Shown: in pieces, positions 2,920 to 28,102 of the stretch
Layout: every line of letters starts with the position of its first letter
How positions within the stretch are numbered: position 1 is the stretch's first letter
DNA from: a virus
Virus record (IMG/VR): IMGVR_UViG_3300035698_010276
Span: 1-30,795 of that record
DNA: 30,795 nt
Strand: one strand, 5' to 3'
The notes under the pieces: generated by a model
Databases searched by the model: none
What the model was told of the DNA's origin: nothing
The model's input: only the letters and a program-made list of their open reading frames with translations
Program-made: the position numbers and the translations under genes

Positions 2920-3357
2920 ATGAATAAGATAATCATGACCAGAGGCCTGCCAGCCTCAGGCAAGACTACATGGGCGAAGAAAATACAAAAAGATAATCCA
3001 GGAAAGTATAAGAGGGTTAATAAAGACGAGCTGCGCGCGATGCTTGATAATGGAATGTGGTCGGGGTATAACGAGAAGTTTGTTCTTATGATCCGTGATA
3101 AAATAATAGAAGAAGCTCTTATTGGTGGATGGAATGTTATTGTTGATGATACTAATTTCCACAGCAAACATAAAAATAGACTTTGGAAGATTGCAGCTAA
3201 GTTTGATGCCACTACAGAAACTAAGGATTTTACGGGCGTTGAGCCAATCACCTGTATTGAGCGAGATATGGAGAGAGCTAACCCAGTTGGAGAAAAAGTT
3301 ATTTGGGATATGAATGATAAATACCTAGGAGGTCAAAATGACAAGTGTACTGACTAA
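2920..3357 (+). CDS. P-loop kinase, polynucleotide-kinase-like
   Basis: I start this at ATG 2920, two bases after the previous stop, because the kinase fold begins right there. The 145-residue protein has a Walker A loop (GLPASGKTTWA, residues 7-17), a helix with an RAMLDNG segment, and VDDTN (about residue 75), the usual second motif of the T4 Pnk/AAA_33 kinase group, followed by a basic region with KHKNRLW. The family phosphorylates 5' ends of nucleic acids or small hydroxyl substrates. Some phage relatives phosphorylate modified bases in DNA, so the substrate is open. There is no phosphatase domain. It overlaps the HD-domain gene by 20 bases. Confidence 0.8.
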   Translation: MNKIIMTRGLPASGKTTWAKKIQKDNPGKYKRVNKDELRAMLDNGMWSGYNEKFVLMIRDKIIEEALIGGWNVIVDDTNFHSKHKNRLWKIAAKFDATTETKDFTGVEPITCIERDMERANPVGEKVIWDMNDKYLGGQNDKCTD

Positions 3358-3769
3358 AGCATTTATATTTGCTTGTAATAAGCACGGAGATACGCTTGAC
3401 GATAGTGGGGAGCTATATGTTAAGGCTCACTTGATGAATGTTACCATGATCCTCAGACAGGTCACAGATGATCAGGAACTTCTTGCGGCAGCTATGTTAC
3501 ATGACACCATAGAGGATACAGATACAACCTATGAGGAGCTTAAGGAGGAGTTTGGGGATAGGATAGCCGATATTGTTTATGAGTTAACTCAGGAGGGTAG
3601 AAAAGATAGCTATGGTTATTATTTCCCAAGACTCAAAAGTGAGGACGCAATTCTAATCAAGTTCGCTGATCGCCTATCTAACCTATCTAGAATGAAGCCA
3701 TGGCCAAAATCAAGACAGGCACATTATCTCAGAAAGTCTAAGTTTTGGAGAGACGGGAGTGATAGATGA
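3338..3769 (+). CDS. HD-domain hydrolase, SpoT/MESH1-like
   Basis: The 143-residue product shows the metal signature of the RelA/SpoT hydrolase branch: a His in the HLMNVTMIL helix (about residue 32), the HDTIEDTD motif (HD with following ED), and KFADRLSNL with the distal Asp. In this family these residues bind manganese and remove the 3'-pyrophosphate from (p)ppGpp. It lacks a synthetase domain and is shorter than MESH1 (about 180 residues), ending soon after the conserved core. It could therefore act on another nucleotide. An AGGAGG-like site (AGGAGGTC) precedes ATG 3338. The stop overlaps the next gene by ATGA. Confidence 0.8.
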   Translation: MTSVLTKAFIFACNKHGDTLDDSGELYVKAHLMNVTMILRQVTDDQELLAAAMLHDTIEDTDTTYEELKEEFGDRIADIVYELTQEGRKDSYGYYFPRLKSEDAILIKFADRLSNLSRMKPWPKSRQAHYLRKSKFWRDGSDR

Positions 3770-3942: not shown

Positions 3943-3971
3943 TTGACAAGTATATGTAGATATGATATACA
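3943..3971 (+). promoter_or_regulatory. Promoter of the amidoligase operon
   Basis: TTGACA (3943-3948), 17-base spacer, TATACA (3966-3971). Transcription would start near 3978, giving a leader of about 28 bases before ATG 4006. No obvious ribosome binding site lies in that leader. The promoter starts exactly after the stop of the previous gene. Confidence 0.7.
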
Positions 3972-3977
3972 TATACT
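3949..3977. promoter_or_regulatory. Perfect inverted repeat over the promoter (operator-like)
   Basis: AGTATATGTA at 3949-3958 and its exact reverse complement TACATATACT at 3968-3977 are separated by nine bases. The left arm begins right after the -35 box and the right arm covers the -10 box. A dimeric protein bound here would cover the promoter, so this is a good candidate operator. No regulator is assigned. Confidence 0.65.
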
Positions 3978-4005
3978 ATATATATTAAATGAATTTGAAT
4001 TAGAT

Positions 4006-5994
4006 ATGCCCATCTTAACGCAAAATTACACAAGCACAGTACAAGCTTTTAGCGAAGATTCAGATTTAACTGATACAGCAGTAGAATCTAACACAGTCAT
4101 AGTTAGGAGAAGGCATGGAATGCCCGCAATTACTCTTCTTTCTACAGGAGATAGGGGACTTATTGACGTAGTTTTAGGTGGTATGGATTTATCTCATGCA
4201 ATATTTTATGGAGATAATCTAGCTGGTGTTGATTTTCAGGGTTGCAACTTATCTGGTTCAGTTTTCAGAAATACCAATATCGCTGGAGCAAATTTTAACA
4301 GTACCGATCTAAGCGATTCTCATTTTAGAAGTTGTTTTGCTAGGGGGTCATCATTTGCTAATGCAAATTTAAATGATGCAGTTTTCTTGGGATGCAATCT
4401 TGATCGAGCACATATGGCAACTGCTAATTCTAATGATAGAACTAACATAGAGGGTTCTGAGGGCAATTTTGAGATGCCATCTGGAGTTATAAGAAATAGA
4501 TTTGCGAGACACATAGCAACTGGAACATCTAATGCAACAATTAGCGGAACAACTATCACTAATGAGCCTAATTTTACTGCGCTTCTTAGAAGGCAGGAAG
4601 AAGAGTTAACTCCAAATCGAAGTGCATCAGAGGCAATGGCTGTTCCAGAGTTTAGTGCATCAGACCAAATGGCTAGAAGTATTTCTGATAGAATTAGAAG
4701 AAGACAGCCTGCGGTTATGGATAGAGAGGATGTTAATACAATGTTACCATCTTTCAGGGCGGGAGAGGGAGTGGTGTTAGTCGAGAATGGTAAAAAGATA
4801 AAACCAAGAACATACAGATTTGGGGTAGAGATAGAGACTATTAGGCCGTGTGACACAATACTTAAATTTAGGAAGACTAACTTTGGGACAGATGGAAGTA
4901 TAAAATACGGTGAAGAGAAGGGTGTGGCTGGGGTTGAAGCCAGATCAATGCCAATGAAGTATGGTGACATGCAAAAATATGTAACTGGTATTAGTAAGTA
5001 TCTTGTAAAGAGTAAGTGTAAGGTAAACGAGTCTTGTGGGTTACACCTACACACATCTCATCCCAAGTTTTTTGATAAGACATACTTGCGCAGGCTCGCG
5101 CTATTCTGGGCATCTATAGAAGATGTTATTATTAGCACTCAGCCAAAGTCAAGATTATCAAATAGATTTTGTCAGAGGAATTTATTCCAATATATTACTG
5201 ACTATGGGATGTCTATTCCAGCTGCAAAAGATAAATTAATAAGTCATATGGGAACTAAGGAGAGATATTCAGCAATGAACCTAGCAGCTCTTCGTAGCCA
5301 TGGAACTATAGAAATTAGGATACACGCTGGCACAATAAATGCTGAGAAAATAAATAACTGGGTTATTCTTATGAGGCATATCTATGATTATGTTTTTAAT
5401 AACTATAACTCAAGGAAGGTTAACGACCTTTTTAAGCAGCAGATAAGTGAGAAGAAGATTGAGAAAGTGTTCAATCTAATTGAACTCCCAGAGGATGTAA
5501 GGGATTTTTACATGCAAAGGATAGAAAAGTTTGGATGGAGAAGATTAAAGAAACAGACTAGGCTTGCAAAGGAATGTCTTGTGTTGCAAAAGGAAAAAGC
5601 TAAGTTGGTGAAGCCACTTGAGAAGCTTAATAAGCAAATTAAATCTAGAATTAAAGAGCTGAGGGGTAAGGATACTGAAGGATCAATAGGGTTTTCATAT
5701 GGATCTATAGCATATGACCCTGATGAAGATAGTCCAACCACAGAAGTTGCTACGCCACATTATCAAATCCAAGATACAAATGTATCATTTGGTGTTGGAG
5801 GAGGAGCTGGAGGAGGAATCGGAGCTGGAGCATCAATAGCCTTTGGGGGTGGTACTAACACCACAATTGGTCAACCAAGTGAAACATTGTCAGAAACTGC
5901 AGACCGATTTTATGGAGGTGGAGCAGCAGCGGCATTGGCTGAATCTAATTTAGTAATGCAGAGATCTCCATCAATAGTGGGGGTAACAACATAA
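4006..5994 (+). CDS. Pentapeptide-repeat/amidoligase fusion protein
   Basis: I place the start at ATG 4006; an earlier TTG would fall on the promoter -35 box. The 662 residues divide into parts. Residues about 48-137 are pentapeptide repeats (for example NLAGVDFQGCNLSGSVF). A low-complexity linker follows. Residues about 268-460 resemble the glutamine-synthetase-fold amidoligase family (Amidoligase_2): FGVEIET opening motif, a DGSI strand, CGLHLHT, and IEIRIHAGT. Then comes a coiled coil (about 508-553) and a Gly-rich segment (about 595-620). Family members form amide bonds using ATP. The glutamine amidotransferase immediately downstream would supply ammonia. The substrate is unknown. No AIG2-like partner is visible. 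Confidence 0.75.
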   Translation: MPILTQNYTSTVQAFSEDSDLTDTAVESNTVIVRRRHGMPAITLLSTGDRGLIDVVLGGMDLSHAIFYGDNLAGVDFQGCNLSGSVFRNTNIAGANFNSTDLSDSHFRSCFARGSSFANANLNDAVFLGCNLDRAHMATANSNDRTNIEGSEGNFEMPSGVIRNRFARHIATGTSNATISGTTITNEPNFTALLRRQEEELTPNRSASEAMAVPEFSASDQMARSISDRIRRRQPAVMDREDVNTMLPSFRAGEGVVLVENGKKIKPRTYRFGVEIETIRPCDTILKFRKTNFGTDGSIKYGEEKGVAGVEARSMPMKYGDMQKYVTGISKYLVKSKCKVNESCGLHLHTSHPKFFDKTYLRRLALFWASIEDVIISTQPKSRLSNRFCQRNLFQYITDYGMSIPAAKDKLISHMGTKERYSAMNLAALRSHGTIEIRIHAGTINAEKINNWVILMRHIYDYVFNNYNSRKVNDLFKQQISEKKIEKVFNLIELPEDVRDFYMQRIEKFGWRRLKKQTRLAKECLVLQKEKAKLVKPLEKLNKQIKSRIKELRGKDTEGSIGFSYGSIAYDPDEDSPTTEVATPHYQIQDTNVSFGVGGGAGGGIGAGASIAFGGGTNTTIGQPSETLSETADRFYGGGAAAALAESNLVMQRSPSIVGVTT

Positions 5995-5995
5995 T

Positions 5996-6748
5996 ATGTG
6001 CGGATTATACGGATTTATAGGAGAACCAACTGGCAATACTAAAGTTATTTTAAATATACTTGGAGTAGCTAATGAGCGAAGGGGTAGAGATTCTTCTGGG
6101 ATGGCATATTATGACGGGAAACATTTTAGGATTTCTAAAAGAGTCGAACCTTCCCATACATTTCTAAAACATAAACCAGCCCAGAGGGGAATGGCATCTA
6201 AATTAGTTATAGGACATACTAGATATGCCACCCATGGGGCAGTGACTCGCGAAAACGCACATCCATTTAAGCACGGAAAATGGATCTTTGCTCATAATGG
6301 GGTAATATCAAATTTTAGATCTCTAAGTAGAATGTTAAATAAGAAATATGAGGTTGATTCACAGATTATTGGTGACTTACTTCCAAACAGAATGCACTTA
6401 CTTAAGGGCTCATATGCGGTGGTTGCCGTTAATACAGATGAGCCAGATAAGATATATTTTTGGAGAATGTTTTCACCACTCTTTGTTGCTCTCTCAAAAA
6501 CTGGATCATTCTTTTCCTCTATTGGACCAGTCCTACAGAGAAACCTACCAGGATACGAGATTAAAGAAGCTCCAAATGGATCATACGGAATTATTGAGAA
6601 CGGAGAAATGAGTTTTGATTTTCAAGAATCTGGATATAGTTCCAGAATATATATGCCCACTTTATTAAATGATTATTGGCCTTGGGAGCCAAGAGAAAGG
6701 AATAGATATGCAACGACTAACCTTATTGCTCAAGCGTTTTGTAAATAA
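5996..6748 (+). CDS. Class II glutamine amidotransferase
   Basis: Starts one base after the amidoligase stop, so it is surely co-translated. Its 250 residues form a lone Ntn-type glutaminase domain. Cys2, exposed when Met1 is removed, is the nucleophile (MCGLYGF). RRGRDSSG, the RYATHG loop and FAHNGVISN are the conserved substrate-binding motifs shared with the N-terminal domains of GlmS, PurF and AsnB. No sugar isomerase or synthetase domain follows, so the ammonia it frees from glutamine must be used by another protein. The amidoligase next door is the obvious candidate. All catalytic residues I can check are present. Confidence 0.9.
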   Translation: MCGLYGFIGEPTGNTKVILNILGVANERRGRDSSGMAYYDGKHFRISKRVEPSHTFLKHKPAQRGMASKLVIGHTRYATHGAVTRENAHPFKHGKWIFAHNGVISNFRSLSRMLNKKYEVDSQIIGDLLPNRMHLLKGSYAVVAVNTDEPDKIYFWRMFSPLFVALSKTGSFFSSIGPVLQRNLPGYEIKEAPNGSYGIIENGEMSFDFQESGYSSRIYMPTLLNDYWPWEPRERNRYATTNLIAQAFCK

Positions 6749-6920
6749 AGACGCTAGAGATCTCGTTCGTCTTGAGGTTCTTAACAAGGACTTGTCTGTA
6801 AAAGACATTGACTTTGTTATTACCTATCTTGTTTCTCAGGATCTTGAAGGACTTGCGAAAGCAGCTCACGAGAGAGAAGATGAGAAGGAAGAAGTCAAGG
6901 AAGATAAGAAGAAGAAATAA
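6708..6920 (+). CDS. Small charged protein of the amidoligase operon, 70 aa
   Basis: The ORF overlaps the end of the amidotransferase gene by 41 bases. I chose ATG 6708, although an in-frame ATG lies at 6669 deeper in that gene. The product has an N-terminal amphipathic region (RLTLLLKRFVNKDARDLVRL), a middle helix (VKDIDFVITYLVSQDLEGLAKAA, about residues 33-55) and a highly charged Lys/Glu tail. It is the last gene before a hairpin. The charged, flexible lysine-rich tail could be an acceptor for an amide-forming enzyme, but that is only a suggestion. Confidence 0.65.
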   Translation: MQRLTLLLKRFVNKDARDLVRLEVLNKDLSVKDIDFVITYLVSQDLEGLAKAAHEREDEKEEVKEDKKKK

Positions 6921-6927
6921 TCACCTC

Positions 6928-6955
6928 CTACCCCTGTCTTAATTGGCAGGGGTAG
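6928..6955 (+). terminator. Strong hairpin at the end of the amidoligase operon
   Basis: CTACCCCTGTC (6928-6938) pairs with GGCAGGGGTAG (6945-6955) with one G-U pair, around a six-base loop TTAATT. It lies eight bases after the last stop of the operon. There is no T run after it, so it is not a textbook intrinsic terminator; it may act with a factor or protect the 3' end. Confidence 0.55.
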
Positions 6956-6971
6956 ATTCACCCATTATAAT
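6943..6971 (+). promoter_or_regulatory. Promoter embedded in the hairpin
   Basis: TTGGCA (6943-6948), 17 bases, TATAAT (6966-6971). The -35 box overlaps the loop and 3' arm of the preceding hairpin. Transcription would start near 6978, just ahead of the AGAAAGGAAA site and ATG 6995. Confidence 0.65.
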
Positions 6972-10079: not shown

Positions 10080-10433
10080 TTGTCAGTGAAATTTTTTAAA
10101 TTGTTTAAGACAAAACAAGTACGTGTTCCTCATACGTGGGACATGATAGCTAAGACATATGCGCGACCAAGATTAGATATTGGATTACTGGAATTGTTAA
10201 AGGGATCTTCGCTAGAAAAAGCATTGTTTGGTGTCACTACTGTCGTTTGGGAGAACGAACTGGGAGAAATTAGAAGAGAAGAGTTCCTTGGTAGTGACTC
10301 AGATGTGTTAGATGCATTACTTGATCAAGTTTCTGAATATGGAAATAAGAATGTAGAACGAGGAGGAGAGACTTTTGTTATTTCTAAGTGGGTTCCTCCA
10401 GTGACTGGCGGCAATCTCCCATTAAGGAGATAA
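10080..10433 (+). CDS. Hypothetical protein upstream of terminase, 117 aa
   Basis: A TTG start at 10080, one base after the previous stop, is backed by a GAGGGAGAG site. The product has a basic N-terminus (KFFKLFKTKQVRVPHTWD), a predominantly helical middle (LLELLKGSSLEKALFG), then a strand-rich part with VVWENELGEIRREEFLG and a Pro-rich end. The gene lies just before TerS and so may belong to packaging, but I see no known domain. Confidence 0.7.
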   Translation: MSVKFFKLFKTKQVRVPHTWDMIAKTYARPRLDIGLLELLKGSSLEKALFGVTTVVWENELGEIRREEFLGSDSDVLDALLDQVSEYGNKNVERGGETFVISKWVPPVTGGNLPLRR

Positions 10434-10436
10434 CTA

Positions 10437-10964
10437 ATGGCTGGTCGTAAAAGCAAACCTTACATGGTTAAGAGGGCAAAGAATGGGGAGATAAAGCAGG
10501 TTCTTAAGGTTGATCTATTTTTAGAAGAGTTTTTAAAGAACGGTGGCAATGCTACTCAAGCTGCAACTGATGCATTTGGGCTTACTAATAGGTCTAGCGC
10601 CGCTGTTATAGGAACTAATTATTTGAAGCAAGCTAAGAGTCTTGGTAGAGTTTTCTTGGAGAGAAAAGGAGCAACCTATAGTAAACTACTGGAGCTTGCC
10701 TATGAGAAGGCACTGGCCTCAAAGAATACTGAATGGTGGGACAGGTTGATGAAGATTTCTGGATATGATGATTTTATGAGTAAGGCGCCAGCGGGAGTGA
10801 GTGTTAACATCCTTACTGCAGAGAATGGCAAGACTGATTTTAAGGGGTTTGTAGAAGAAGGAGAAGTTGTTAGTGAGAAGGAAGAGGTTGAAGAGGTTGA
10901 GGATGAGATTAGTCCTAAGATGAAAGAACTTCTTGGAGTGGAGGATGATGATGAAGGTAACTAA
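10437..10964 (+). CDS. terS: Terminase small subunit
   Basis: The 175-residue protein has the layout of phage small terminases: a basic start, a helix-turn-helix-like stretch (LEEFLKNGGNATQAATDAFGL, then SSAAVIGTNYLKQAKSLGR), a helical oligomerisation region (YSKLLELAYEKALASKNTEW) and an acidic tail rich in Glu and Asp ending VEDDDEGN. The N-terminal part binds pac/cos DNA and the tail probably contacts TerL. It is directly upstream of TerL and overlaps it by 14 bases. Sequence identity to a named TerS cannot be tested here; the call rests on layout and place. Confidence 0.75.
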   Translation: MAGRKSKPYMVKRAKNGEIKQVLKVDLFLEEFLKNGGNATQAATDAFGLTNRSSAAVIGTNYLKQAKSLGRVFLERKGATYSKLLELAYEKALASKNTEWWDRLMKISGYDDFMSKAPAGVSVNILTAENGKTDFKGFVEEGEVVSEKEEVEEVEDEISPKMKELLGVEDDDEGN

Positions 10965-12891
10965 AATTGACTATAAAAAATTTATTGAACACTATTTCAT
11001 GGTTATTGATCGTGAGCAGCAAATCCCAGTTCCTTTCAAGTTGAACATTGTACAAGAGAAGTATCTTGAGATGATTAATAAAGAGAACCCAACTCAAGAG
11101 GGGGTAAGGGATATTATTCTTAAGGCTCGTCAGCAAGGATTCTCATCTTTTATTCTTGCTATGTTTACGGTTGATTTCATTGTGCGCGAGTATTCAGTTT
11201 CTATTTGTATTTCTCACAGGAGGGATTCAACAGAGCTTCTATTTAAAAAGGTTCGTTTTTATCTAGAGAGTTATCTTAAAATAAAGGCTAAGGAAGAGGG
11301 TAAGGAATATACTGAAGACACACTAAAAAGTTGGCTGGGATCTGACAATAAAGGAATGATTTCTAATTCTCAGAATAAGGCAACGTTCTACATTGGTACT
11401 GCTGGCGCCAAGGTTGGAGGTCGTGGCGGATCTGCACGTAATGTTCACTTTTGTGTGGGTGAGGATGTTAAGATTTTATGTCCAGACGGTAGTTCAACTG
11501 AAATAAAAGATATTAATATTGGGGATGAGGTTATTTCTGAAAAAGGAAAAACAACTCAAGTGATTAATAAGTGGAATACTGGGATAAAGCCAATGAAGAG
11601 AATTCGTCTATGGCTTGGAAATGAAACAATTGATGTATCTAATGATCATAAAATTAAAACAATTGAAGGGTGGAAGGTGGCTAGAGATATTTCTAGCACA
11701 GACTGGGTTGAATGGTCTCATGGAAAATCAACTGAAAATGTAAAACATCTTTCAATTGATAAACAGAAAAACTGTGTACATCTGTCTAATGATGGAGATT
11801 TAAAATTAGATGTTGATGAGAATCTTGGATATTTTATTGGGTATTATTTAGCAGAAGGACATATCTCTAAAAACCTAAACAGAGTTGAACTTACATGTCA
11901 TAAGGATGAAAATTTTTACTTAAAATTTAAAGACCTATTCCCACTTGAGCAAAAAGTAAAAATTAGGAGTGATAAATTTGGTACAAGGAAAACAATAACA
12001 TATTATTCAAAAGAACTTGGAATGTTTATTAACAATCTTGTTGGAAGGGTAAAAGGAAAACATATTCCAGATGATATGATCAAGAATTATCCTAATGATT
12101 TTTTAATTGGAATGTACAGGGGGTGGAAAGATGGTGATGGCAGTAAAATGAGAGATGATGTTTGCTATCTGACAACAATAAGAGAAAAAATTGCTAGACC
12201 TATGCGACAAATTGGAATGATGGTTCTTAAAAAAGTTCTTTCATTATCATATCACGATAATGTTGAAAGGTATGATGTTCCAGTACAGCCATCTTATGTT
12301 TTACGCGAGCATAACAATGGTAATAATATTGGAAAGAGAAGTTTGAAATATAAATTTATTGATGGAAAATTTTATATCAGAGTTAAATATGTTATTGATG
12401 TTGATGAGAAGGACACGTTTGAGATAGAGGTAGAAGATAGTTCTCATTCTTTTTTAACTCCATGTGGACTAATATCTAACTCAGAGGCAGCTTTCTACCA
12501 GGATACAGAAATGCTTAAGGCTAGCGAAATGATCCTTGCTACCGCCCAACAGGTACCTCAGGGTAGGGGAATGATCTTTATCGAGTCTACTGCTAACGGA
12601 GAGGGCAATTTCTACCATGCTGAGTGGGAGAGGGCAGAGGACCATAAGAGTGTTTATAAGCCAAGATTCTTTGGTTGGCAGGAATATTACTCTGAGGCAT
12701 GGGTTGAAGAGAAGAGAAAAGAATTTCCAACTGATAAGCTATGGAAGCAAGAATATCCAAGTAACCCAGATGAGGCCTTCATTACCTCTGGATCACCATA
12801 CTTTGATGTGTTAGTTTTGAAGAAGATGCAAGATAAAAAAGCCATTCCAATTGAATTTGGGAGGATCGCTCCCGACGGACACTTTTTATGA
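10951..12891 (+). CDS. terL: Terminase large subunit, ATPase part, with intein
   Basis: Three ATGs lie at 10945, 10948 and 10951; I use the last, six bases after GGAGG. The 646-residue precursor begins with the packaging ATPase: a deviant Walker A (LKARQQGFSSF, near residue 58). The Walker B neighbourhood is interrupted: NVHF ends at residue 167 and SEAAFY resumes at 511, with a 343-residue intein between. After splicing, the ATPase part is 303 residues and ends with FESTANGEG (likely coupling motif), SNPDEAF and DGHFL. The nuclease domain is missing here and lies in the overlapping next ORF. The motor translocates DNA into the prohead. Confidence 0.9.
   Translation: MKVTKIDYKKFIEHYFMVIDREQQIPVPFKLNIVQEKYLEMINKENPTQEGVRDIILKARQQGFSSFILAMFTVDFIVREYSVSICISHRRDSTELLFKKVRFYLESYLKIKAKEEGKEYTEDTLKSWLGSDNKGMISNSQNKATFYIGTAGAKVGGRGGSARNVHFCVGEDVKILCPDGSSTEIKDINIGDEVISEKGKTTQVINKWNTGIKPMKRIRLWLGNETIDVSNDHKIKTIEGWKVARDISSTDWVEWSHGKSTENVKHLSIDKQKNCVHLSNDGDLKLDVDENLGYFIGYYLAEGHISKNLNRVELTCHKDENFYLKFKDLFPLEQKVKIRSDKFGTRKTITYYSKELGMFINNLVGRVKGKHIPDDMIKNYPNDFLIGMYRGWKDGDGSKMRDDVCYLTTIREKIARPMRQIGMMVLKKVLSLSYHDNVERYDVPVQPSYVLREHNNGNNIGKRSLKYKFIDGKFYIRVKYVIDVDEKDTFEIEVEDSSHSFLTPCGLISNSEAAFYQDTEMLKASEMILATAQQVPQGRGMIFIESTANGEGNFYHAEWERAEDHKSVYKPRFFGWQEYYSEAWVEEKRKEFPTDKLWKQEYPSNPDEAFITSGSPYFDVLVLKKMQDKKAIPIEFGRIAPDGHFL
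11452..12480 (+). mobile_element. LAGLIDADG intein in TerL
   Basis: The element starts at Cys (CVGEDVKIL, block A) and ends GLISN before Ser+1. Block B is VSNDHKIKTIEG. Two LAGLIDADG helices, YFIGYYLAEG and FLIGMYRGWKDGDG, form the homing endonuclease. Block F reads FEIEVEDSSHSFL. The penultimate residue is Ser, not the usual His. Excision rejoins NVHF to SEAAFY, restoring the Walker B region exactly. At 343 residues it is full length, so splicing and homing may both be active. Confidence 0.9.
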
Positions 12892-13574
12892 AGAATGACA
12901 TTATTAATACCTTCCAGTTTTCTGATCATTACCAGGCTAAGGTATATCGCGAGCTTGATGTTAATGAACAGTTAGTTATGTTTGCTGATCCAGCTGACTC
13001 TCAGGACTTCTGTGCCGCAGTTGTTTATTCTAAGAAACATCAGGACTGTCCTATAATATTTAATGAGGTGATGGAGTCATCTCAATTTGGGCACGAGCTT
13101 TATAACATTGGTAAATATATCCAGGTTAGAACAAACTATTTTCCAAAGCTAGCTGTTGAGCGCAACACTGGGCAGGCTACCATCTATGTTCTACAACAAC
13201 TTAATTATCCAGACATGTTCCGCATGGTTGACTTTACTTCTATGAATCCAAGAGAGGGCGGAGACATTGGCTGGCTAACAACTGGTCATATTTCTGGGGG
13301 GGAGTTAAAGGGTACGCGTAGGAAGATGTTAGATGACCTTGCTCTCACAGTTAAACAAGAGAGAATTACACTATATGATCAAGAACAAATTAAGCAATTA
13401 AAATCGTTTGTTATAGTAAAGGGCAGAGCACAAGCAGCCCAGAATAAACATGACGATTTAGTTATGGCAACTGCTGGAGCATTACAAATTGGGCAATTAA
13501 CACCAGACATGGATTTTGGTGATTATGATCCAGAAGCATTAAAAGAACATCGTCAAAAATGGCGATTTAAATAA
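12888..13574 (+). CDS. terL: Terminase large subunit, nuclease part (separate ORF)
   Basis: ATG 12888 overlaps the TGA of the ATPase ORF (ATGA), with no ribosome binding site at normal spacing. The 228 residues match the RNase H-fold nuclease domain of TerL: FADPADSQDFCAAVV (first metal-binding Asp), LAVERNTGQATIYVLQQL (second acidic motif) and KHDDLVMATAGAL (last Asp pair). It cuts concatemeric DNA during headful or end packaging. With the spliced ATPase part the total is about 531 residues, a usual TerL length. The split lies in the linker between domains. It may be natural or the result of a one-base change in a T5 run. Confidence 0.85.
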   Translation: MKNDIINTFQFSDHYQAKVYRELDVNEQLVMFADPADSQDFCAAVVYSKKHQDCPIIFNEVMESSQFGHELYNIGKYIQVRTNYFPKLAVERNTGQATIYVLQQLNYPDMFRMVDFTSMNPREGGDIGWLTTGHISGGELKGTRRKMLDDLALTVKQERITLYDQEQIKQLKSFVIVKGRAQAAQNKHDDLVMATAGALQIGQLTPDMDFGDYDPEALKEHRQKWRFK

Positions 13575-20308: not shown

Positions 20309-20340
20309 GTGTTGAATGGGAGGAATTACCCCCGCAACAC
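20309..20340 (+). other. Hairpin ahead of the first glycosyltransferase gene
   Basis: GTGTTG (20309-20314) pairs with CAACAC (20335-20340), and inside it GGG (20318-20320) can pair with CCC. A GGGAGG sequence lies in the loop region, 30 bases before ATG 20354, so ribosome access may depend on this fold. A 22-codon frame from ATG 20316 overlaps the glycosyltransferase start. Confidence 0.4.
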
Positions 20341-20353
20341 CAACAATAAAAAA

Positions 20354-22837
20354 ATGGCAAAAACAAAATCTAAACTTTTTTTAAACATGATTCTCAAGCA
20401 GGATGAGCCTCTTGAGATGGTTAAGCGTTCCATAAAATCAGTTGAGAAGTATGTTGACGGAGCATATATCACCGTTACATATAAAGATAAGAAGCCAAAG
20501 CCAACAAACCCTCTAGTTAAGTATCTCTCTAAAAAATTCAACGTTAGTTTCTTTAAATGGGTAGGAGATTTTTCTGCTGCTCGCCAATTTGCATTAGATC
20601 AGGTCCCAAGTGGTAAAGATAATTATATCTACTGGCAAGATGCCGATGATGTATTAGAAAATGCACCAGCCCTAAGAACACTACTCCTATCATGCGAAGA
20701 AAACAATATATCCGCGATATTCTTTGATTATCTTTATAATGTTACCCTTGATGATGATGGGAATATTGCAGAAATACTGGTTAAGCATAAAAGAGAGAGA
20801 ATCATCAGAAATGATGGTACGTTTAAGTGGATTGGAATGTTACACGAAACTCTTATCGAGCAGAGAACTGAGAATGTCCTCAAAACAACCACTAAAGAGT
20901 GTCGAGTTATTCACTTAAGCACTGCGGATAGAGCAGATGTTAATATTGATAGAAATATTGAGATATTGGAAGACCAGATAGGTAAGGAAAAGCATAGTGA
21001 CCCGAGAACATTAATTTATCTTGCAAAGGCATACTTTGATAAGGGTAAATTCTCCAGTGATGAAGATGGAAGAAAAAAATATTTTAACTTAGCTCTTACA
21101 TTATTCCATGAATATTTAGAGGGATTTGGAAAAGCTGGTAGCCCTGGTTATAATGAGGGATCTGGATGGCCAGAGGAGAGAGCTAATGCATGGGAGGCTG
21201 TCGGAGAGATAGCTATTATGTCTGGGAATGCTGAGATTGCAATTCAGGCTTTCCAATCTGCGATTGATGAAGCTCCTCAGTTTCCTAATTACTACGTTGA
21301 TTTAGCAATGGCCTATAGTATAAGTGGAGATATAAAGAAGGCCAAGCATTGGCTATTTGTCGCAACTAATATAGAAATGCCAGAGACAACTATGATTACT
21401 ACCCCTAGAGACCTTAAGTTTAGGGCTTTAGAAGTTGATTTCCAGATTAAAATGAGAGAGGGAAAGTATGCTCAGGCTAAGCAAGATGCACAAGCTATCT
21501 CAGACTTATTTCCAGAGAATGAAGACTATAAAAATAGGGTAGAGATGGCTCAACAGGCAGATTATGATAATAAAGCTTCACAGTCTATTGTTTTCCTTGG
21601 TAAATATCTTGAAATGACAAAAGATTCTAAAGAAAAACTAGAGAGCCTTGTAGAAGCTATTCCAGAATCTCTTAAGCAAGAGAAGTTCGCCTCAGAGATG
21701 AAACATAGATTTATGAAGCCAAAGATATGGGGAGAAGATGAGATTGCAATTATCTGTGGCCCAGGGTGGGAACCATGGACACCAAAGTCAATAGAGACTG
21801 GTTTAGGTGGATCTGAAGAGGCAGTAGTATATCTATCTCAAGAGCTAAAGAAAAAGGGTTGGAAAGTAACGGTTTATGCTAATCCACTTGGAAAAGGTGG
21901 AGATTATGACGGTGTTACATATAAGATGTGGCATGAGATCAACTATAAAGATCAGTTTAATGCATTAGTTCTATGGAGAGTTATAGGGTTTGTTGATTTT
22001 AACCCAATTGCTAAATTTAAGATGGTTTGGTTACACGATGTGCCAAATAACCCAGATTTTACAAGTGACCGAGTTAGTATGGTTAATAAGATTGCTACGT
22101 TATCAGAATATCACAAAGGCCTACTTAGACTTAATGATAATGGTAAGTTTATAAAGATGCCAGAGAAGAAAACCTTTTTAACAACCAATGGAATCTCAGA
22201 GATGGCACCTGACCCACTTGTGGTTAGGAATAATAAGAGAGTAATCTATTCATCTTCTCCAGATAGAGGATTGATTCACCTACTCAACATGTGGCCAGAG
22301 ATTATAAAGGAAGTTCCAGATGCAGAGCTCCATATTTACTATGGATTTAATACTTTTGACGTGATTCATAAGGGCAATCCTGGGAGAATGAAGTGGAAAG
22401 CCGCAATGATGGAGATGATGAAGCAACCTGGAATTAAATATCATGGGAGAGTTGGGCATAAAGATCTTGAGAAAGAGATGATGGCTTCTGGTATCTGGGC
22501 CTACCCTACCGACTTTACGGAAATATCATGTATTACCGCAATGAAGGCCCAGGCACTAGGGGCAATTCCAGTTGTTACTAACTTTGGAGCGCTCAAGGAG
22601 ACTGTTAAAAATGGCATCAAGGTTGATATGGATGTCACAACAGAGGAAGGTCAAAAGGAATATAAGGAGCAGTTGATAAAACTACTTAAAGATGACGGTG
22701 AACAAGAGGAAATAAGGGAAGAAATGATGAACTGGGCACAGGAATACTTTACATGGGAAAAAGTTGCAACGGAGTGGGACAGATTATTTAGGGTTAGTTT
22801 ACAAAACCCAGAGATGTTAATACCAGGAGAGGTTTAA
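20354..22837 (+). CDS. Three-part glycosyltransferase: GT-A, TPR, GT-B
   Basis: I start at ATG 20354; an in-frame GTG at 20309 lies in a hairpin. The 827 residues have a GT2-like GT-A domain first (MILKQDEPLEMVKRSIKSV and the QDADD metal motif, about residues 98-102), then TPR-like helices (RTLIYLAKAYFDKGKFS; NAWEAVGEIAIMSGNAEIAI; NYYVDLAMAYSISGDIKKA), then a GT-B domain of the family-4 kind (GLGGSEEAVVYLSQEL; YSSSPDRGLIHLL; GRVGHKDL; EISCITAMKAQALGAIPVV). One polypeptide could transfer two different sugars while TPRs hold a protein or glycan acceptor. It is the first and largest gene of the sugar module. Confidence 0.85.
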   Translation: MAKTKSKLFLNMILKQDEPLEMVKRSIKSVEKYVDGAYITVTYKDKKPKPTNPLVKYLSKKFNVSFFKWVGDFSAARQFALDQVPSGKDNYIYWQDADDVLENAPALRTLLLSCEENNISAIFFDYLYNVTLDDDGNIAEILVKHKRERIIRNDGTFKWIGMLHETLIEQRTENVLKTTTKECRVIHLSTADRADVNIDRNIEILEDQIGKEKHSDPRTLIYLAKAYFDKGKFSSDEDGRKKYFNLALTLFHEYLEGFGKAGSPGYNEGSGWPEERANAWEAVGEIAIMSGNAEIAIQAFQSAIDEAPQFPNYYVDLAMAYSISGDIKKAKHWLFVATNIEMPETTMITTPRDLKFRALEVDFQIKMREGKYAQAKQDAQAISDLFPENEDYKNRVEMAQQADYDNKASQSIVFLGKYLEMTKDSKEKLESLVEAIPESLKQEKFASEMKHRFMKPKIWGEDEIAIICGPGWEPWTPKSIETGLGGSEEAVVYLSQELKKKGWKVTVYANPLGKGGDYDGVTYKMWHEINYKDQFNALVLWRVIGFVDFNPIAKFKMVWLHDVPNNPDFTSDRVSMVNKIATLSEYHKGLLRLNDNGKFIKMPEKKTFLTTNGISEMAPDPLVVRNNKRVIYSSSPDRGLIHLLNMWPEIIKEVPDAELHIYYGFNTFDVIHKGNPGRMKWKAAMMEMMKQPGIKYHGRVGHKDLEKEMMASGIWAYPTDFTEISCITAMKAQALGAIPVVTNFGALKETVKNGIKVDMDVTTEEGQKEYKEQLIKLLKDDGEQEEIREEMMNWAQEYFTWEKVATEWDRLFRVSLQNPEMLIPGEV

Positions 22838-22839
22838 TT

Positions 22840-23043
22840 ATGAATACATTTATGGGACATGGAAAATGTCCAGTATGTGGCAAAGAGATACCAAGAGTTT
22901 CAACTAGAGATAATAAAACTAGATATTGTTCAAGGATCTGTGCATCACAGGCAAGATATAGGACTAGATATGTTGGCACCTCATCAGGTCCAGCTAATAG
23001 ACCAACAAGAGAACAAACTCTAAGACTACCAGGGGATGCTTAA
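22840..23043 (+). CDS. Small zinc-ribbon protein, 67 aa
   Basis: ATG 22840, two bases after the glycosyltransferase stop. CPVCGKEI (C10, C13) and YCSRICASQ (C30, C34) are the two cysteine pairs of a small zinc ribbon in the form often seen at the end of HNH-type or MYM-like ribbons. The C-terminus is basic and Pro-rich. It has no catalytic domain. It may bind nucleic acid or a partner protein; its presence inside the sugar module is unexplained. Confidence 0.7.
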   Translation: MNTFMGHGKCPVCGKEIPRVSTRDNKTRYCSRICASQARYRTRYVGTSSGPANRPTREQTLRLPGDA

Positions 23044-23229
23044 ATGGAGGATCCTACGGTTACTATAGAGGAACTTAGCCTAATGGGCGGCGCTCTTGCC
23101 ATGGCTGTGAATATGGATTTTATGTCTAGGGATCACGGTAAGATTATTTGGAGAAAATTATTAAAATTATCAAATTTAGATATTAAATCTAAGAAGAAGG
23201 AGAAAGATGACACTATTAAAAAAGGTTAA
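23044..23229 (+). CDS. Small hypothetical protein, 61 aa
   Basis: ATG 23044 directly follows the previous stop. The peptide has an acidic N-terminus (MEDPTVTIEELSLMGGALAM), a hydrophobic middle with Ala/Met and a Lys-rich end (SKKKEKDDTIKKG). It overlaps the next gene by 23 bases in another frame. The amphipathic pattern suggests a short helical protein. No family is recognised. Confidence 0.6.
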   Translation: MEDPTVTIEELSLMGGALAMAVNMDFMSRDHGKIIWRKLLKLSNLDIKSKKKEKDDTIKKG

Positions 23230-23662
23230 CCCAGAGTGGCAGCCAAGCGAGAACCCAGGACTAAAAGTCGGGGATACATTAGAAATTACTGACTACGCAG
23301 GCTTAGTTCGCGTTGGTATGGCAGTTATGGTTGATGAGGGCGGAAATGAAATGGAACTACCAGGTCAGGTATTTATCTGCCCAATTTGTTTCAAGCATAT
23401 TGACGGACTTATCAAATTTAACGAACATGTTGCTAGCCATCTTAAAACAAATAAGAAGAACATGGAAGCTAAAGTAGCTAATATTGAAGAGCTAAAAAAG
23501 ACTGATGCTGATGAACTAAAGGAAAAGGTTGATGCAGAGTTAGAGTCTAAAAAGGCTGAAGATGCTGAGGTTGCTAAAAAAGCAGCATTCGTTGCAAAGA
23601 TGAAAGCAGCTAAAGCTAAAAAAGCTAAGGAGAAAGAAGCTATTGCAAAGAAGGGCAAGTAG
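23207..23662 (+). CDS. Zinc-finger protein with Lys/Ala-rich coiled tail, 151 aa
   Basis: ATG 23207 follows AAGGAG. Residues 1-65 have strand-like sequence ending in a C2H2-type finger, CPICFKHIDGLIKFNEHVAS then HL, where two Cys and two His could bind zinc. The remainder (about 90 residues) is a long charged helix of Lys, Glu and Ala (KKTDADELKEKVDAELESKK). Such a finger plus coiled coil suggests an adaptor that binds DNA or protein. It is translationally coupled to the next gene (TAGTG overlap). The family is not recognised. Confidence 0.7.
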   Translation: MTLLKKVNPEWQPSENPGLKVGDTLEITDYAGLVRVGMAVMVDEGGNEMELPGQVFICPICFKHIDGLIKFNEHVASHLKTNKKNMEAKVANIEELKKTDADELKEKVDAELESKKAEDAEVAKKAAFVAKMKAAKAKKAKEKEAIAKKGK

Positions 23663-24474
23663 TGAAAAAGAAGGTCTTATTTGTCTATGACCATAAGTAT
23701 CCAGAGCTATGGAGAGATGGTCTGTGGGCAGCTTTAGAGCTTCTTAAAGATGACTTCGAGGTAACCAAATTCAATCTTCAAGATAGGGGTAAGAAGAAAT
23801 TCTCCCCTATCAATAATTTTGATTTTGTCCTCGGATGGGGGGCATTCAATAGTCCAGTAGAAAAGTCTTTCAGGGAGCTTAAGGAGAAGATACCAGATAA
23901 GAAAATGGGTCTTTGTATTGCTGGTAATGCTTTCCCTCCAGATGAAATGGATGCTTATGATGTGCTTTTCTATGAAACTGAGTGGTATCTTCCACAAATA
24001 AGTAAACATAAGAAAGCTATCCACGCATTCGGAGTCAATACAGATATTTTCAACCCATGGCCAGAAGCTCCTACAATTTGGGATTACCTTTCAGTTGGAT
24101 CTTTTTCTTACTGGAAGCGCCATGAAAATATTATTACCAAGCCTGGTACTAAGATGGTTATTGGGGAAATACAAAAGGATAACTGGACAGAATCTTTTGA
24201 TATTATCTCCAACCTATTACTCGCTGGAGTGGGAATATCAGATATGGTATACCCAACCAAGCTAAGGAATCTCTATAACTGTGCGGGCACAATAGTACTA
24301 TATTCTGACATTAACGGTGGTGGAGAGAGGTCTTTACTAGAGGCTCGCGCATGTGGGAAGAAAGTCGAGATTATGGATGATAACCCCAAGCTACAGAGCC
24401 TATTAGATGGGCCACTGCTAGATCATCATTATTATTATGCTCAGCTTAAAAAGGGCATAGAGGACGCACTGTGA
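23662..24474 (+). CDS. GT-B-type glycosyltransferase, 270 aa
   Basis: Start GTG 23662 overlaps the previous stop. The protein opens with KKVLFVYDHKYPELW, a Rossmann-like strand and loop. The C-terminal half carries the donor-site pattern of GT-B enzymes: SVGSFSYWKRHENI, IVLYSDINGGGERSLLEARACGKK (E-x7-E motif region) and DNPKL. It is shorter than usual (about 350), lacking some N-domain elements. It probably transfers a sugar in the surface or virion glycan made by this cluster. Acceptor and donor are unknown. Confidence 0.75.
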   Translation: MKKKVLFVYDHKYPELWRDGLWAALELLKDDFEVTKFNLQDRGKKKFSPINNFDFVLGWGAFNSPVEKSFRELKEKIPDKKMGLCIAGNAFPPDEMDAYDVLFYETEWYLPQISKHKKAIHAFGVNTDIFNPWPEAPTIWDYLSVGSFSYWKRHENIITKPGTKMVIGEIQKDNWTESFDIISNLLLAGVGISDMVYPTKLRNLYNCAGTIVLYSDINGGGERSLLEARACGKKVEIMDDNPKLQSLLDGPLLDHHYYYAQLKKGIEDAL

Positions 24475-25055
24475 TAGAAAAATCATGTTTAAATTGTGGG
24501 GAGAAATTTAAATGTAAGCCTTGTCATATTGATCGTGCAAAATATTGCTCTAAAGAATGTAAATATATGTTTAGTACAGGGAAAAAACCAAAAAATATAG
24601 ATGGGCTTAAACTAGGAAGAGGATGGAATAAAGGGATACAATGTTCGGAAGAAACTAGGGATAAAATAAGCAAAGCTAACTCTGGAAAACAGAGGACAGA
24701 AGAACAGGTTAAGAAAATGTCTATTGCTATGACTGGAAAAAAAAGAACAATGAAAACTAGAAAGAAAATAAGTCTTTCTCAGAAGGGAGAAAAACATTGG
24801 AATTGGCAGGGTGGAATAACATCACATAATCAAGTTGGAAGAAGTTCTATGGAATATAAAATCTGGAGAAAATCTGTATTAGAAAGAGATAACTATACTT
24901 GTCAATGGTGTGGAATTAAGGATAATTTGGTGGTAGACCATATTAGACCATGGGCTGGGCATGAAGAATATAGATTTTTAATTTGGAATGGGAGAACTCT
25001 TTGCAGAGATTGTCATAAGAAAACTAGATATTACTGTGGGAGAATAAAAAAAAGC
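24471..25055 (+). mobile_element. HNH/NUMOD3 homing endonuclease segment
   Basis: The first 585 bases of the fused gene encode zinc ribbon, NUMOD3 repeats and HNH domain, typical of free-standing phage homing endonucleases. It ends at the ATG (25056) that would start the ancestral GT2 gene. The right boundary is a guess from domain content; no flanking target repeat was identified. Confidence 0.6.
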
Positions 25056-25670
25056 ATGCATCCGTTCATATCTATGGTTATTCCTTGTTATACAAAAACT
25101 AAAGAGATGGAAGAAATGGCACTAGACTGTGCTTCATCATATAGGTCACAGGTTGATGAAATGATTATTTTAGAGGATGGTCAATTACCATCTCAAAAAT
25201 TGGCAGAGATGGCTGATGTTTATATATATAATAAGCACAACAAGGGTTTTACTGCCAGTGTAAACGAGGGATGGAGAATGGCTACTGGAGAGTATGTGAT
25301 GATTGTTAATTCAGATACAACATTGTTAAATAATGGAAATTTGAGGGATTTGTGTATTCCAGGTAAAGTTGCAAGCCCTCTCATCGCGAACCAGGAAATT
25401 GAGCGCCTTGCAGGACCATTCTGGGTTGCCCCAAGAGAGGTAACAAAAGAATATGGTTATCTACTTGAGGAGATGAAGACCTATAGTAGTGATTCAGAAT
25501 ATGATGAAAGAGTTAAAGATATATTCCAGAAAGTCCCAAGTGTAAAAATTTACCACGAGATGGCACAGAGTGTATCTGCGGCTGGTATTGAAGGTGGAGA
25601 AGAGCAGATTAGGGACAGAAAGATCTATGCCGAGATGATTAAAAAGGGATTAGTGAGATTAGTGAAATGA
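24471..25670 (+). CDS. HNH/NUMOD3 endonuclease fused to a GT2 glycosyltransferase
   Basis: The GTG start overlaps the previous stop (GTGA). Residues 1-195 are a homing-endonuclease-like unit: a zinc ribbon (CLNCGEKF, YCSKEC), NUMOD3-type repeats (SEETRDKISKANSGK; TEEQVKKMSIAMTGKKR; KKISLSQKGEKHWNW) and an HNH domain (ERDNYTCQWCG, VVDHIRPW, TLCRDCHKK). From Met196 begins a GT2 domain (PFISMVIPCYTKTKEMEEMA, NSDTTLL as DxD-like, NKHNKGFTASVNEGW). The joined frame has no stop. Met196 is a natural GT2 start, so the fusion may come from insertion of a mobile HNH gene. Confidence 0.85.
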   Translation: MIEKSCLNCGEKFKCKPCHIDRAKYCSKECKYMFSTGKKPKNIDGLKLGRGWNKGIQCSEETRDKISKANSGKQRTEEQVKKMSIAMTGKKRTMKTRKKISLSQKGEKHWNWQGGITSHNQVGRSSMEYKIWRKSVLERDNYTCQWCGIKDNLVVDHIRPWAGHEEYRFLIWNGRTLCRDCHKKTRYYCGRIKKSMHPFISMVIPCYTKTKEMEEMALDCASSYRSQVDEMIILEDGQLPSQKLAEMADVYIYNKHNKGFTASVNEGWRMATGEYVMIVNSDTTLLNNGNLRDLCIPGKVASPLIANQEIERLAGPFWVAPREVTKEYGYLLEEMKTYSSDSEYDERVKDIFQKVPSVKIYHEMAQSVSAAGIEGGEEQIRDRKIYAEMIKKGLVRLVK

Positions 25671-26233
25671 AGCTATATCTTGGCGCTGCTGATGGGCCAC
25701 TCCACGAACAACACAGAAAGGTAATGGGTGATCCAGAAGAATGGACATTTGTGGATAAGTATGTGGATAACGGTAGAAATAAGCTTTGGGATGCGGAGAA
25801 GTTAGATGAGGTAGAAGACTCTTCTGTGGAAAAGATATATGCATCACATCTGGCAGAACACTTTTCTCATAGGGATGTTCAGGACATTTTAGACAACTGG
25901 TACATCAAGCTTAAAAAAGGTGGAAAACTTATTCTCAACGTTCCAGATCTTGAATGGGCATGTTTTAGTTTTCTAGTTGCACTAAAGCAGGAAAGAGAGA
26001 ATATTGATCCAGATCCGATGCAATATTATAGATATAGCATTAATCATGATAACCATGAACACGATTTCCTGCAGATTTTCTATGGTAGTCATGAGAATGA
26101 TGGTGAGTATCATAAGGGCGGGTTTACAAAAGAATCTATAAAATATTTACTTAGAAGATTTGCAAAAGTTGAAGTTGAACAGGCTGTGGAAGCACACCAG
26201 ATGGGCTGTTTACTTGTGCGAGCAACCAAATGA
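25667..26233 (+). CDS. SAM-dependent methyltransferase, 188 aa
   Basis: ATGA overlap with the GT2 stop. The Rossmann fold is of the COG4627-like predicted methyltransferase kind: KLYLGAADG (SAM-binding start, in place of LdlGcG), a DKYVDNGRNKL strand, VEKIYASHLAEHFSHRDV (E-H-x motif) and LKKGGKLILNVPDLEW. In polysaccharide clusters such enzymes methylate sugars, and this one fits that pattern. It lacks obvious SET or DNA methylase motifs. The His-rich C-terminal half is long for this small family. It overlaps the next gene by ATGA. Confidence 0.8.
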   Translation: MKLYLGAADGPLHEQHRKVMGDPEEWTFVDKYVDNGRNKLWDAEKLDEVEDSSVEKIYASHLAEHFSHRDVQDILDNWYIKLKKGGKLILNVPDLEWACFSFLVALKQERENIDPDPMQYYRYSINHDNHEHDFLQIFYGSHENDGEYHKGGFTKESIKYLLRRFAKVEVEQAVEAHQMGCLLVRATK

Positions 26234-27051
26234 AACTACACATCAACTGTGAAGACAATCCCCATACTTTTAATAAGAAGAACTATTTAGTTAGAGCTGC
26301 CGAGAGACTTGGACTTGATGTAATTGTTGGCTGGAATCCAGGAGTAGATGCTGATTATGTTTTAAACATAGAACCATATAGTATTCTTGGTAAGGGGAAT
26401 AAGTGGACTGGAGCATGGTGGATAGATACTTTACTAGATAACATTAGATTCAATACTGAATTTCAATATATAGATGATATTTTCCTTGCTGGTAGCTCAC
26501 ATAAGATCATACCAGAGCACAATCATCACTTGTTTTTCCAAGCAGCTGATTTAGATATTCACAAACCGATGCCAGTAAAAAAAGACTGTGATTTCATTCT
26601 GGCGGGGACAATGGGATTAGATATTTACAAGGAGAGAGAGAGGGTAATAAAATTACTCAGAGAGAGTGGTTTTTCTTTTGTTGGTGCTGGAAAGAATTTT
26701 AAAGGACTTAATTACACCATGCAGTTGAATCGCGCGCGCGTACAGTTCATTAGATCTATGGATGTAGATGGACATGGGGAGATAGCTCAAAGGTTCTTTG
26801 AGTGCCTTGCTATTGGTCCAGTGCTGACTAACTGGGTGCCAGATTTAGAGCAAACAGGGCTTGTTGAAGGTGAAGATTATCTTGCGTATCATAATGATGA
26901 AGAAATGATACTTAAGATGCATGAGCTTATAGATGATCCAGACTATGCTAATGCAGTTGCCCAGAGTGGTAGGCTTAAGTCACTTGCGAATCACACATAC
27001 GAGCACAGACTAATAACACTAATGAATATAATAGGAGATAGATGTGAGTAG
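26230..27051 (+). CDS. GT-B/CgeB-like glycosyltransferase, 273 aa
   Basis: ATGA overlap sets the start. The protein has a Rossmann-like start (MKLHINCEDNPHTF), an SSHKIIPEHNHHLFFQAAD stretch, FILAGTMG-type strand, and a late RARVQFIRSMDVDGHGEIAQ then RFFECLAIGPVLTN, which is the signature of the CgeB/Glyco_trans_1_2 group: E-C-x-A-x-G-P-V-L-T. This group transfers sugars in spore coats and surface glycans. The C-terminus is helical. Donor is unknown. It overlaps the cytidylyltransferase by eight bases. Confidence 0.75.
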   Translation: MKLHINCEDNPHTFNKKNYLVRAAERLGLDVIVGWNPGVDADYVLNIEPYSILGKGNKWTGAWWIDTLLDNIRFNTEFQYIDDIFLAGSSHKIIPEHNHHLFFQAADLDIHKPMPVKKDCDFILAGTMGLDIYKERERVIKLLRESGFSFVGAGKNFKGLNYTMQLNRARVQFIRSMDVDGHGEIAQRFFECLAIGPVLTNWVPDLEQTGLVEGEDYLAYHNDEEMILKMHELIDDPDYANAVAQSGRLKSLANHTYEHRLITLMNIIGDRCE

Positions 27052-27469
27052 GGTTTATACTGGCGGAACATTTGATATATTCCATTATGGGCATGTTAAC
27101 TTCCTGCGCCAATGTGCTCAGATTGGATTTGTTACAGTTTCTCTCAACACAGACGAGTTTATAGAGGAGTACAAAGGTAAGCCCCCAGTAATGTCCTTTA
27201 ATGAAAGGCAGAAGTCTCTATTTGGCTGTAAATATGTTGACAATGTTATCCCCAACCTGGGTGGATGTGACTCAACAATATCAATATCAGCTGTTAATCC
27301 AGATGTGATTGCCATTGGGACTGACTGGGCGACAAGAGACTATTACGAACAGATGGGTTTTAATCAGGAATGGTTAGATCTAAGAGAGATCACACTAGCT
27401 TATCTACCATATACAAAGGAAATTTCTACTACTAGCCTGAAGCAGAGGATAAAAGATTATGAAAATTAG
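27044..27469 (+). CDS. Cytidylyltransferase-like enzyme (TagD/RfaE-C type)
   Basis: GTG start at 27044, inside the end of the previous gene. It has the nucleotidyltransferase signature GGTFDIFHYGHVNFL (HxGH) and ISTTSLKQRI (ISTT-x-x-I/L-x-x-RI), with SLNTDEFIEEYKGKPPVMSF between, as in glycerol-3-phosphate cytidylyltransferase and related enzymes. The reaction would be CTP plus a phosphoalcohol or sugar phosphate giving a CDP-linked donor. In this cluster it may supply CDP-glycerol or a CDP-sugar for a glycosyl or glycerol-phosphate transferase. The substrate cannot be told from sequence. It is 141 residues, usual for TagD. Confidence 0.85.
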   Translation: MSRVYTGGTFDIFHYGHVNFLRQCAQIGFVTVSLNTDEFIEEYKGKPPVMSFNERQKSLFGCKYVDNVIPNLGGCDSTISISAVNPDVIAIGTDWATRDYYEQMGFNQEWLDLREITLAYLPYTKEISTTSLKQRIKDYEN

Positions 27470-28091
27470 TGCATTTGTTCTGGCTTACATAGAAACTGAG
27501 GATCAGGCGCTTATGACAGATGCGTGTATTAATTCTTTAGTTGGTAAGGTTGATAATCTAATCCTAATTGATAACGGATCAACATATAAATATGAGACGC
27601 CATTCGGGGTATCAAAGACAATAAAATTACCAAAGAATCTAATGTATATTGGCGGGATAAACGCTGGGATTAAGGCTTGCTCAGAGACCGACTGTGATTA
27701 TATTTTACTAGTAACAAATGATACTGAGGTTGTTGAGGGAGATTTAGAGACTCTTTGCATTCCAGACTCGCTTGTGTTCCCAAAGATGGTAACTCAAAGG
27801 AGAAGTAGGCAGCCTTTTTACCATGGTGGATTCTACTGTATGCCAAATGATCTCTCTTGGATTATGCATAATGATGAATATAATTTTTTCTTTTCTGATG
27901 TAGAGGTGTTTTATAGAGGAATAAAAGCTGGTCATGGGATGGCATATAGACCAAATGTTGTGGTTAATCATGAACTATGGAAAACGATGAAGGAGGGTGA
28001 AGAGAGAAGTGGGCTATATGTGAAAGATCAAAGAATATTTATTCAGAGAAACAATTTTAACCCAGATGAAGAAAGCTTTTTAGTTATTTAG
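27459..28091 (+). CDS. GT2-like glycosyltransferase, 210 aa
   Basis: ATG 27459 overlaps the cytidylyltransferase end. The protein opens with MKISAFVLAYIETED, then LILIDNGST (nucleotide-binding strand and loop), MYIGGINAGIKACSE (G-x-N-x-G), and DYILLVTNDTEV (DxD-like metal motif NDT). This is the GT-A fold of family 2. The C-terminus has VFYRGIKAGHGMAYRPN, typical of the acceptor side. It is short (210 residues; typical 250-300), but the core is complete. Confidence 0.8.
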   Translation: MKISAFVLAYIETEDQALMTDACINSLVGKVDNLILIDNGSTYKYETPFGVSKTIKLPKNLMYIGGINAGIKACSETDCDYILLVTNDTEVVEGDLETLCIPDSLVFPKMVTQRRSRQPFYHGGFYCMPNDLSWIMHNDEYNFFFSDVEVFYRGIKAGHGMAYRPNVVVNHELWKTMKEGEERSGLYVKDQRIFIQRNNFNPDEESFLVI

Positions 28092-28102
28092 TTGTATATA
28101 CT

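Follow-up and report, generated by a model that had tools for sequence, protein, structure and literature searches.

The window, the whole 30,795-nucleotide stretch of DNA analyzed here, carries two adjoining genes that belong to the known amidoligase/glutamine amidotransferase (GATase) cassettes of phages, and the new part of this pair is the pentapeptide-repeat arm at the N terminus of the amidoligase. By analogy with its relatives, we consider the pair to be, on balance, probably a tailed-phage amidoligase that depends on glutamine, a new-armed member of cassettes that have been proposed to modify host peptidoglycan. The features of the locus are listed here.

3943–3971, plus strand: promoter-like TTGACA-17-TATACA, read from the sequence upstream of the amidoligase gene; tentative
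4006–5994, plus strand: amidoligase gene; ORF of 662 residues with Pfam matches to PF12224 (E 9.9e-16) and PF00805 (E 2e-13)
4177–4425, plus strand: pentapeptide-repeat β-helix, residues ~58–140, about four coils; from Pfam, shuffles, AlphaFold, and Foldseek
4777–5553, plus strand: glutamine synthetase (GS)-fold amidoligase domain, residues ~258–516; from Pfam, PHROG, invariant columns, and fold match
5536–5679, plus strand: long basic helix, residues 511–558; from the AlphaFold model
5701–5991, plus strand: Gly-rich low-complexity tail, residues 566–662; predicted to be disordered from pLDDT <50 and composition
5996–6748, plus strand: stand-alone class II GATase, 250 residues; from Pfam GATase_4/6, NCBIfam, and structure match
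6708–6920, plus strand: small ORF, 70 residues with a Lys/Glu-rich end, overlapping the 3′ end of the GATase gene
6928–6955, plus strand: 11-bp hairpin past the last gene; −21.9 kcal/mol, z −5.05, no T-run

The ORF list gives the amidoligase as a 683-codon frame (3943–5994) that opens with TTG. This TTG is the first base triplet of the TTGACA −35-like hexamer, and ATG at 4006 is therefore the likely start. From this start the protein runs from the pentapeptide repeats through the GS-fold domain and the long helix to the Gly-rich tail. The initial annotation had placed pentapeptide repeats and a GS-fold amidoligase in a single 662-residue protein, followed after one base by a lone class II glutaminase with Cys2 intact. 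Both statements are borne out by the Pfam matches and the structural comparisons given below, and the GATase ORF indeed opens one base past the amidoligase stop.

It had also described the pair as an operon with its own promoter and end hairpin, and here the outcome is divided. The hairpin is real by its folding energy, but it lacks a T-run, and a terminator scan found none, terminators not rising above chance. It also overlaps a second promoter-like site at 6943–6971. The promoter scan returned 14 sites against 14.2 in shuffled sequence, which is no excess, and a promoter of the pair's own at 3943–3971 is plausible and unproven. An inverted repeat (GTATATG-13-CATATAC, 3950–3976) overlaps this promoter-like site and is a possible operator. 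Since the 70-residue ORF overlaps the end of the GATase gene, the unit may have three genes; the product of this ORF has no match in Pfam, PHROG, or PADLOC. PADLOC likewise returned no match for the amidoligase or the GATase, and a role in phage defense, which was considered, found no database support.

The amidoligase domain matches the Pfam Amidoligase_2 profile with 58.8 bits, above the curated cut-off of 22. Its motifs are FGVEIE (272–277), DGS (296–298), GVEAR (E311), CGLHLH (344–349), PxSR (R383), and GTIEIRIHAGT (433–443). In alignments with 46–50 relatives, E275, E277, D296, H347, H349, R383, E436, and R438 are invariant, and E311 is nearly so. The metal- and ATP-binding elements of glutamine synthetase are ExE, CGxHxH (SGMHVH in GS), and ExR (RIExR in GS); the GS-like catalytic motifs of the family, ExE, GxE, CGxHxH, R, and ExR, are all kept in the window protein. 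The AlphaFold model has pLDDT mostly >90 across the domain, and over residues 258–516 it matches YbdK with Z 13.7, GS with Z 12.9 (glutamine synthetases lie at ~12–13), and Dop with Z 11.8. Foldseek gives a GS-fold match at E 1e-4. When PDB sequences were searched with the amidoligase profile, nothing related came up at E values up to 1, and the structural relatives came from the fold comparison alone. Judged by sequence and predicted fold, then, the amidoligase is intact: the profile and structure checks that the initial annotation proposed returned an Amidoligase_2 match, a GS fold, and the full set of ATP and metal residues.

The glutaminase scores 47.9 bits against GATase_4, for which the Pfam cut-off is 23, and its residues C2, R76, H100-N101-G102, and D121 are invariant in an alignment of 21 sequences. 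The N-terminal part of the NCBIfam glmS model matches it at E 2e-30, and the structure of the GlmS glutaminase (1xff) matches at E 1.7e-11. It is not a GlmS equivalog, with 105.9 bits against a cut-off of 418 and a match confined to residues 2–175.

The adjacency of the two genes is conserved, as had been anticipated. A survey of neighboring genes shows that 92 of 175 distinct phage amidoligases have a GATase directly beside them, immediately downstream in 69 cases (the window pair included) and immediately upstream in 23. The set is drawn from IMG/VR and phage records, and a handful of loci fetched via the GATase introduce a small bias. An adjacent GATase is absent in about half of the relatives. 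In cellular genomes, the GATase is next downstream in 25 of 79 distinct amidoligases. GATase-like matches are rare overall, occurring in 410 of 50,697 phage records. In a comparison of 59 dereplicated pairs, amidoligase distances and GATase distances co-vary with a rho of 0.19, which exceeds all 2000 permutations and is absent among distant pairs; this weak correlation suggests that partner exchange is common. The nearest relative found of both window proteins is L016 (IMG/VR contig 3300037307_000160), where the amidoligase core is 35% identical and the GATase that comes after it is 47% identical over 173 residues. Unlike the window protein, the L016 amidoligase (309 aa) begins at the catalytic domain and has neither the pentapeptide arm nor the Gly-rich tail; its charged C-terminal segment is comparable to helix 511–558. 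At L018, L022, L023, L026, and similar loci, one GATase is flanked by two different amidoligases, and the downstream one opens at several of these loci with repeated Cys-pair motifs that are putatively zinc-binding.

The initial annotation offered the pair as a candidate undescribed amide-tagging system; this novelty does not stand, as the pair is already a published phage cassette (PMC5498523, PMC3890496, PMC10580990, PMC6256558). An amidoligase with a GATase, or a seven-gene peptide-bond module containing both, is described in LUZ24-like phages (PMC3890496), phage tf (PMC3517423), OM43 phages (PMC10580990), Pseudoalteromonas phages (PMC5498523), and phage PhiM6 (PMC6256558). Carriers of the cassette include the podoviruses phiEco32, LUZ24, and RIO-1, as well as PaP3, tf, and PA11 (PMC10580990, PMC6256558, PMC5498523); the survey of Iyer and Aravind (Iyer et al. 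2009) underlies PMC5498523, PMC10580990, and PMC6256558, and not PMC3890496, and Hardies et al. 2013 is cited for the cassette in PMC5498523. The module has been proposed to alter the host peptidoglycan or cell wall and thereby block superinfection (PMC5498523, PMC6256558, PMC10580990). Among the neighbors of the relatives we find a RimK-type ATP-grasp, a COOH-NH2 ligase, and a gamma-glutamylcyclotransferase, which are genes of the published cassette. In the window, these three have no match in the scanned ORFs, the window being a linear fragment in which some ORFs of 100–150 aa lie outside the scan. With no companion gene matched among the larger ORFs, the peptidoglycan reading is borrowed from the relatives.

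The arm is where the window departs from these precedents. Its match to PF00805 lies above the Pfam cut-off, and 14 of 17 repeat units are in register, where shuffling the protein 2000 times yields at most 9. The AlphaFold model of the arm, built on two sequences (the arm alone and one other pentapeptide protein), is a four-sided β-helix with a core pLDDT of ~90, and Foldseek matches it to solved pentapeptide proteins. The arm thus has the tandem A(D/N)LXX units and the four-sided β-helix by which pentapeptide proteins are defined. The full-length model resolves neither arm nor tail, with a pLDDT of ~30 in the arm, because the relatives lack it.

As the initial annotation supposed, the fusion appears to be a new and unreported element. 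Among 254 distinct amidoligases, 175 from phages and 79 from genomes, the window protein is the only one with a pentapeptide arm and the only one to exceed 5 in a unit score out of 10; the census is a sample of the best 80 loci per scan. Neither a tblastn search with the whole protein against phage records and plasmids nor a search of 294 genomes from one phylum, that of L148, gave a pentapeptide–amidoligase fusion among the matches listed, which were amidoligase-only or pentapeptide-only. No earlier report of such a fusion was found in the literature searched, where the one article to use both terms deals with something else. On L002, a 163-kb phage contig, an almost pure pentapeptide-repeat protein is encoded at 10290–10852, ~800 bases past an amidoligase–GATase pair; this is a single case and may be a coincidence.

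N-terminal extensions of other kinds, 120–420 residues long, are found on many GATase-linked amidoligases, and several of these extensions are Cys-rich with repeated CxxC pairs. A constant enzyme core with a varying N-terminal arm points to the arm as the determinant of the target, and a docking role for a swappable arm is the simplest reading. In the window protein, the arm most likely serves to dock or space the enzyme, choosing the target without a part in catalysis, and the docking suggested by the initial annotation is a plausible hypothesis.

The record itself is a 30.8-kb linear fragment of a tailed phage, with capsid, portal, and terminase genes present. The capsid protein matches PF17236 (E 1.8e-64) as a distant protein of the SU10/phiEco32 type, and its best phage matches are ~31% identical. 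The terminase large subunit (10933–13574) is split by an insert that resembles an intein, matches Hint and LAGLIDADG, and begins at about residue 174 of the first ORF; the terminase resumes in a second ORF, which has a 4-base overlap with the first. Just upstream of the amidoligase, 3338–3769 encodes a 143-residue HD protein that matches RelA/SpoT over the hydrolase portion (E 8.7e-22) and is a candidate phage alarmone hydrolase. A block of sugar genes at 20309–30397 includes a TPR-glycosyltransferase, other glycosyltransferase-like ORFs, a cytidylyltransferase-like ORF, an epimerase, and a DegT aminotransferase. Within it, a single ORF (24471–25670) combines an HNH endonuclease bearing a NUMOD3 motif with a glycosyltransferase family 2 domain, possibly a homing element in or before a glycosyltransferase gene.

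In the mechanism that we propose, the class II glutaminase would split glutamine to release ammonia, as is known for its family, and the ammonia would be passed to the GS-fold enzyme. Following the chemistry of that family, the enzyme would use ATP to convert a carboxylate to an acyl phosphate and then, presumably, to an amide. The N-terminal β-helix would select the target. Peptides of the host peptidoglycan are the favored substrate because of the cassette precedent, and their amidation could render competing phages or lytic enzymes less effective.

The pair might instead amidate or cross-link a host protein or a protein of the phage virion, with the arm as the protein-docking part, an alternative that we hold to be possible and somewhat doubtful. 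Pentapeptide folds often serve as scaffolds for protein binding, the GS-fold ligases PafA and Dop act on proteins (Dop being among the fold matches), and the gene lies near portal, terminase, or tail genes in some relatives. However, no target sequence or tag peptide was found, and the position of the gene varies. A narrower form of this idea, in which the arm would grip one defined host or virion protein for glutamine-fed amidation or cross-linking, that is, protein tagging rather than a cell-wall enzyme, seems quite unlikely. We also regard it as unlikely that the pair's product is a small metabolite or else a modified nucleotide or sugar amide, the acceptor perhaps being a sugar acid that decorates virion or host glycans. 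The glycosyltransferase, cytidylyltransferase-like, epimerase, and DegT genes on the same fragment speak for such a product, but they form a separate block 14 kb away, and this block is not seen in the scanned neighbors of relatives that have the pair.

The initial annotation further suggested that the pentapeptide fold may mimic DNA. An arm that acts on DNA gyrase or some other DNA-binding protein by posing as DNA would resemble Qnr and MfpA, with which it shares a fold class, but the repeat core is short, with about four coils, and only weakly acidic (7 D/E and 4 K/R in 83 residues, net charge ~−3). Every match to the Qnr and MfpA families of NCBIfam is far below its cut-off (17–27 bits against 240–500), and unrelated pentapeptide families score alike. 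We therefore reject a Qnr-like role on charge and family scores and consider DNA mimicry by the arm very improbable. The peptidoglycan reading remains our preferred one, and its chief rival is a protein target. Phage amidoligase/GATase cassettes are widespread, and their function in the published sources is itself a proposal; a separable natural docking arm offers a handle on the substrate and could be used as bait.

Set against known systems, the window pair is closest in kind to the cassettes of phiEco32, LUZ24, PaP3, tf, RIO-1, and PA11, which likewise encode an Amidoligase_2 enzyme and, in a neighboring phage gene, a class II GATase. It differs from the phiEco32/RIO-1 type in its short glutaminase (250 aa) and in the pentapeptide repeats of its amidoligase. 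The enzyme resembles YbdK-type carboxylate–amine ligases and glutamine synthetase in fold (Z ~12–14) and in the order of its acidic, His, and Arg motifs, whereas its identity to them is ~10% and a separate glutaminase would offer the ammonia. That glutaminase has the class II core, the Cys2, and the glutamine-binding and oxyanion motifs of the GlmS glutaminase domain, but it stands alone, without the SIS sugar isomerase domain. Finally, the arm shares the right-handed four-sided β-helix of the pentapeptide-repeat proteins Rfr, Qnr, MfpA, and HetL, and in contrast to these it is a short, weakly charged arm joined to an amidoligase.
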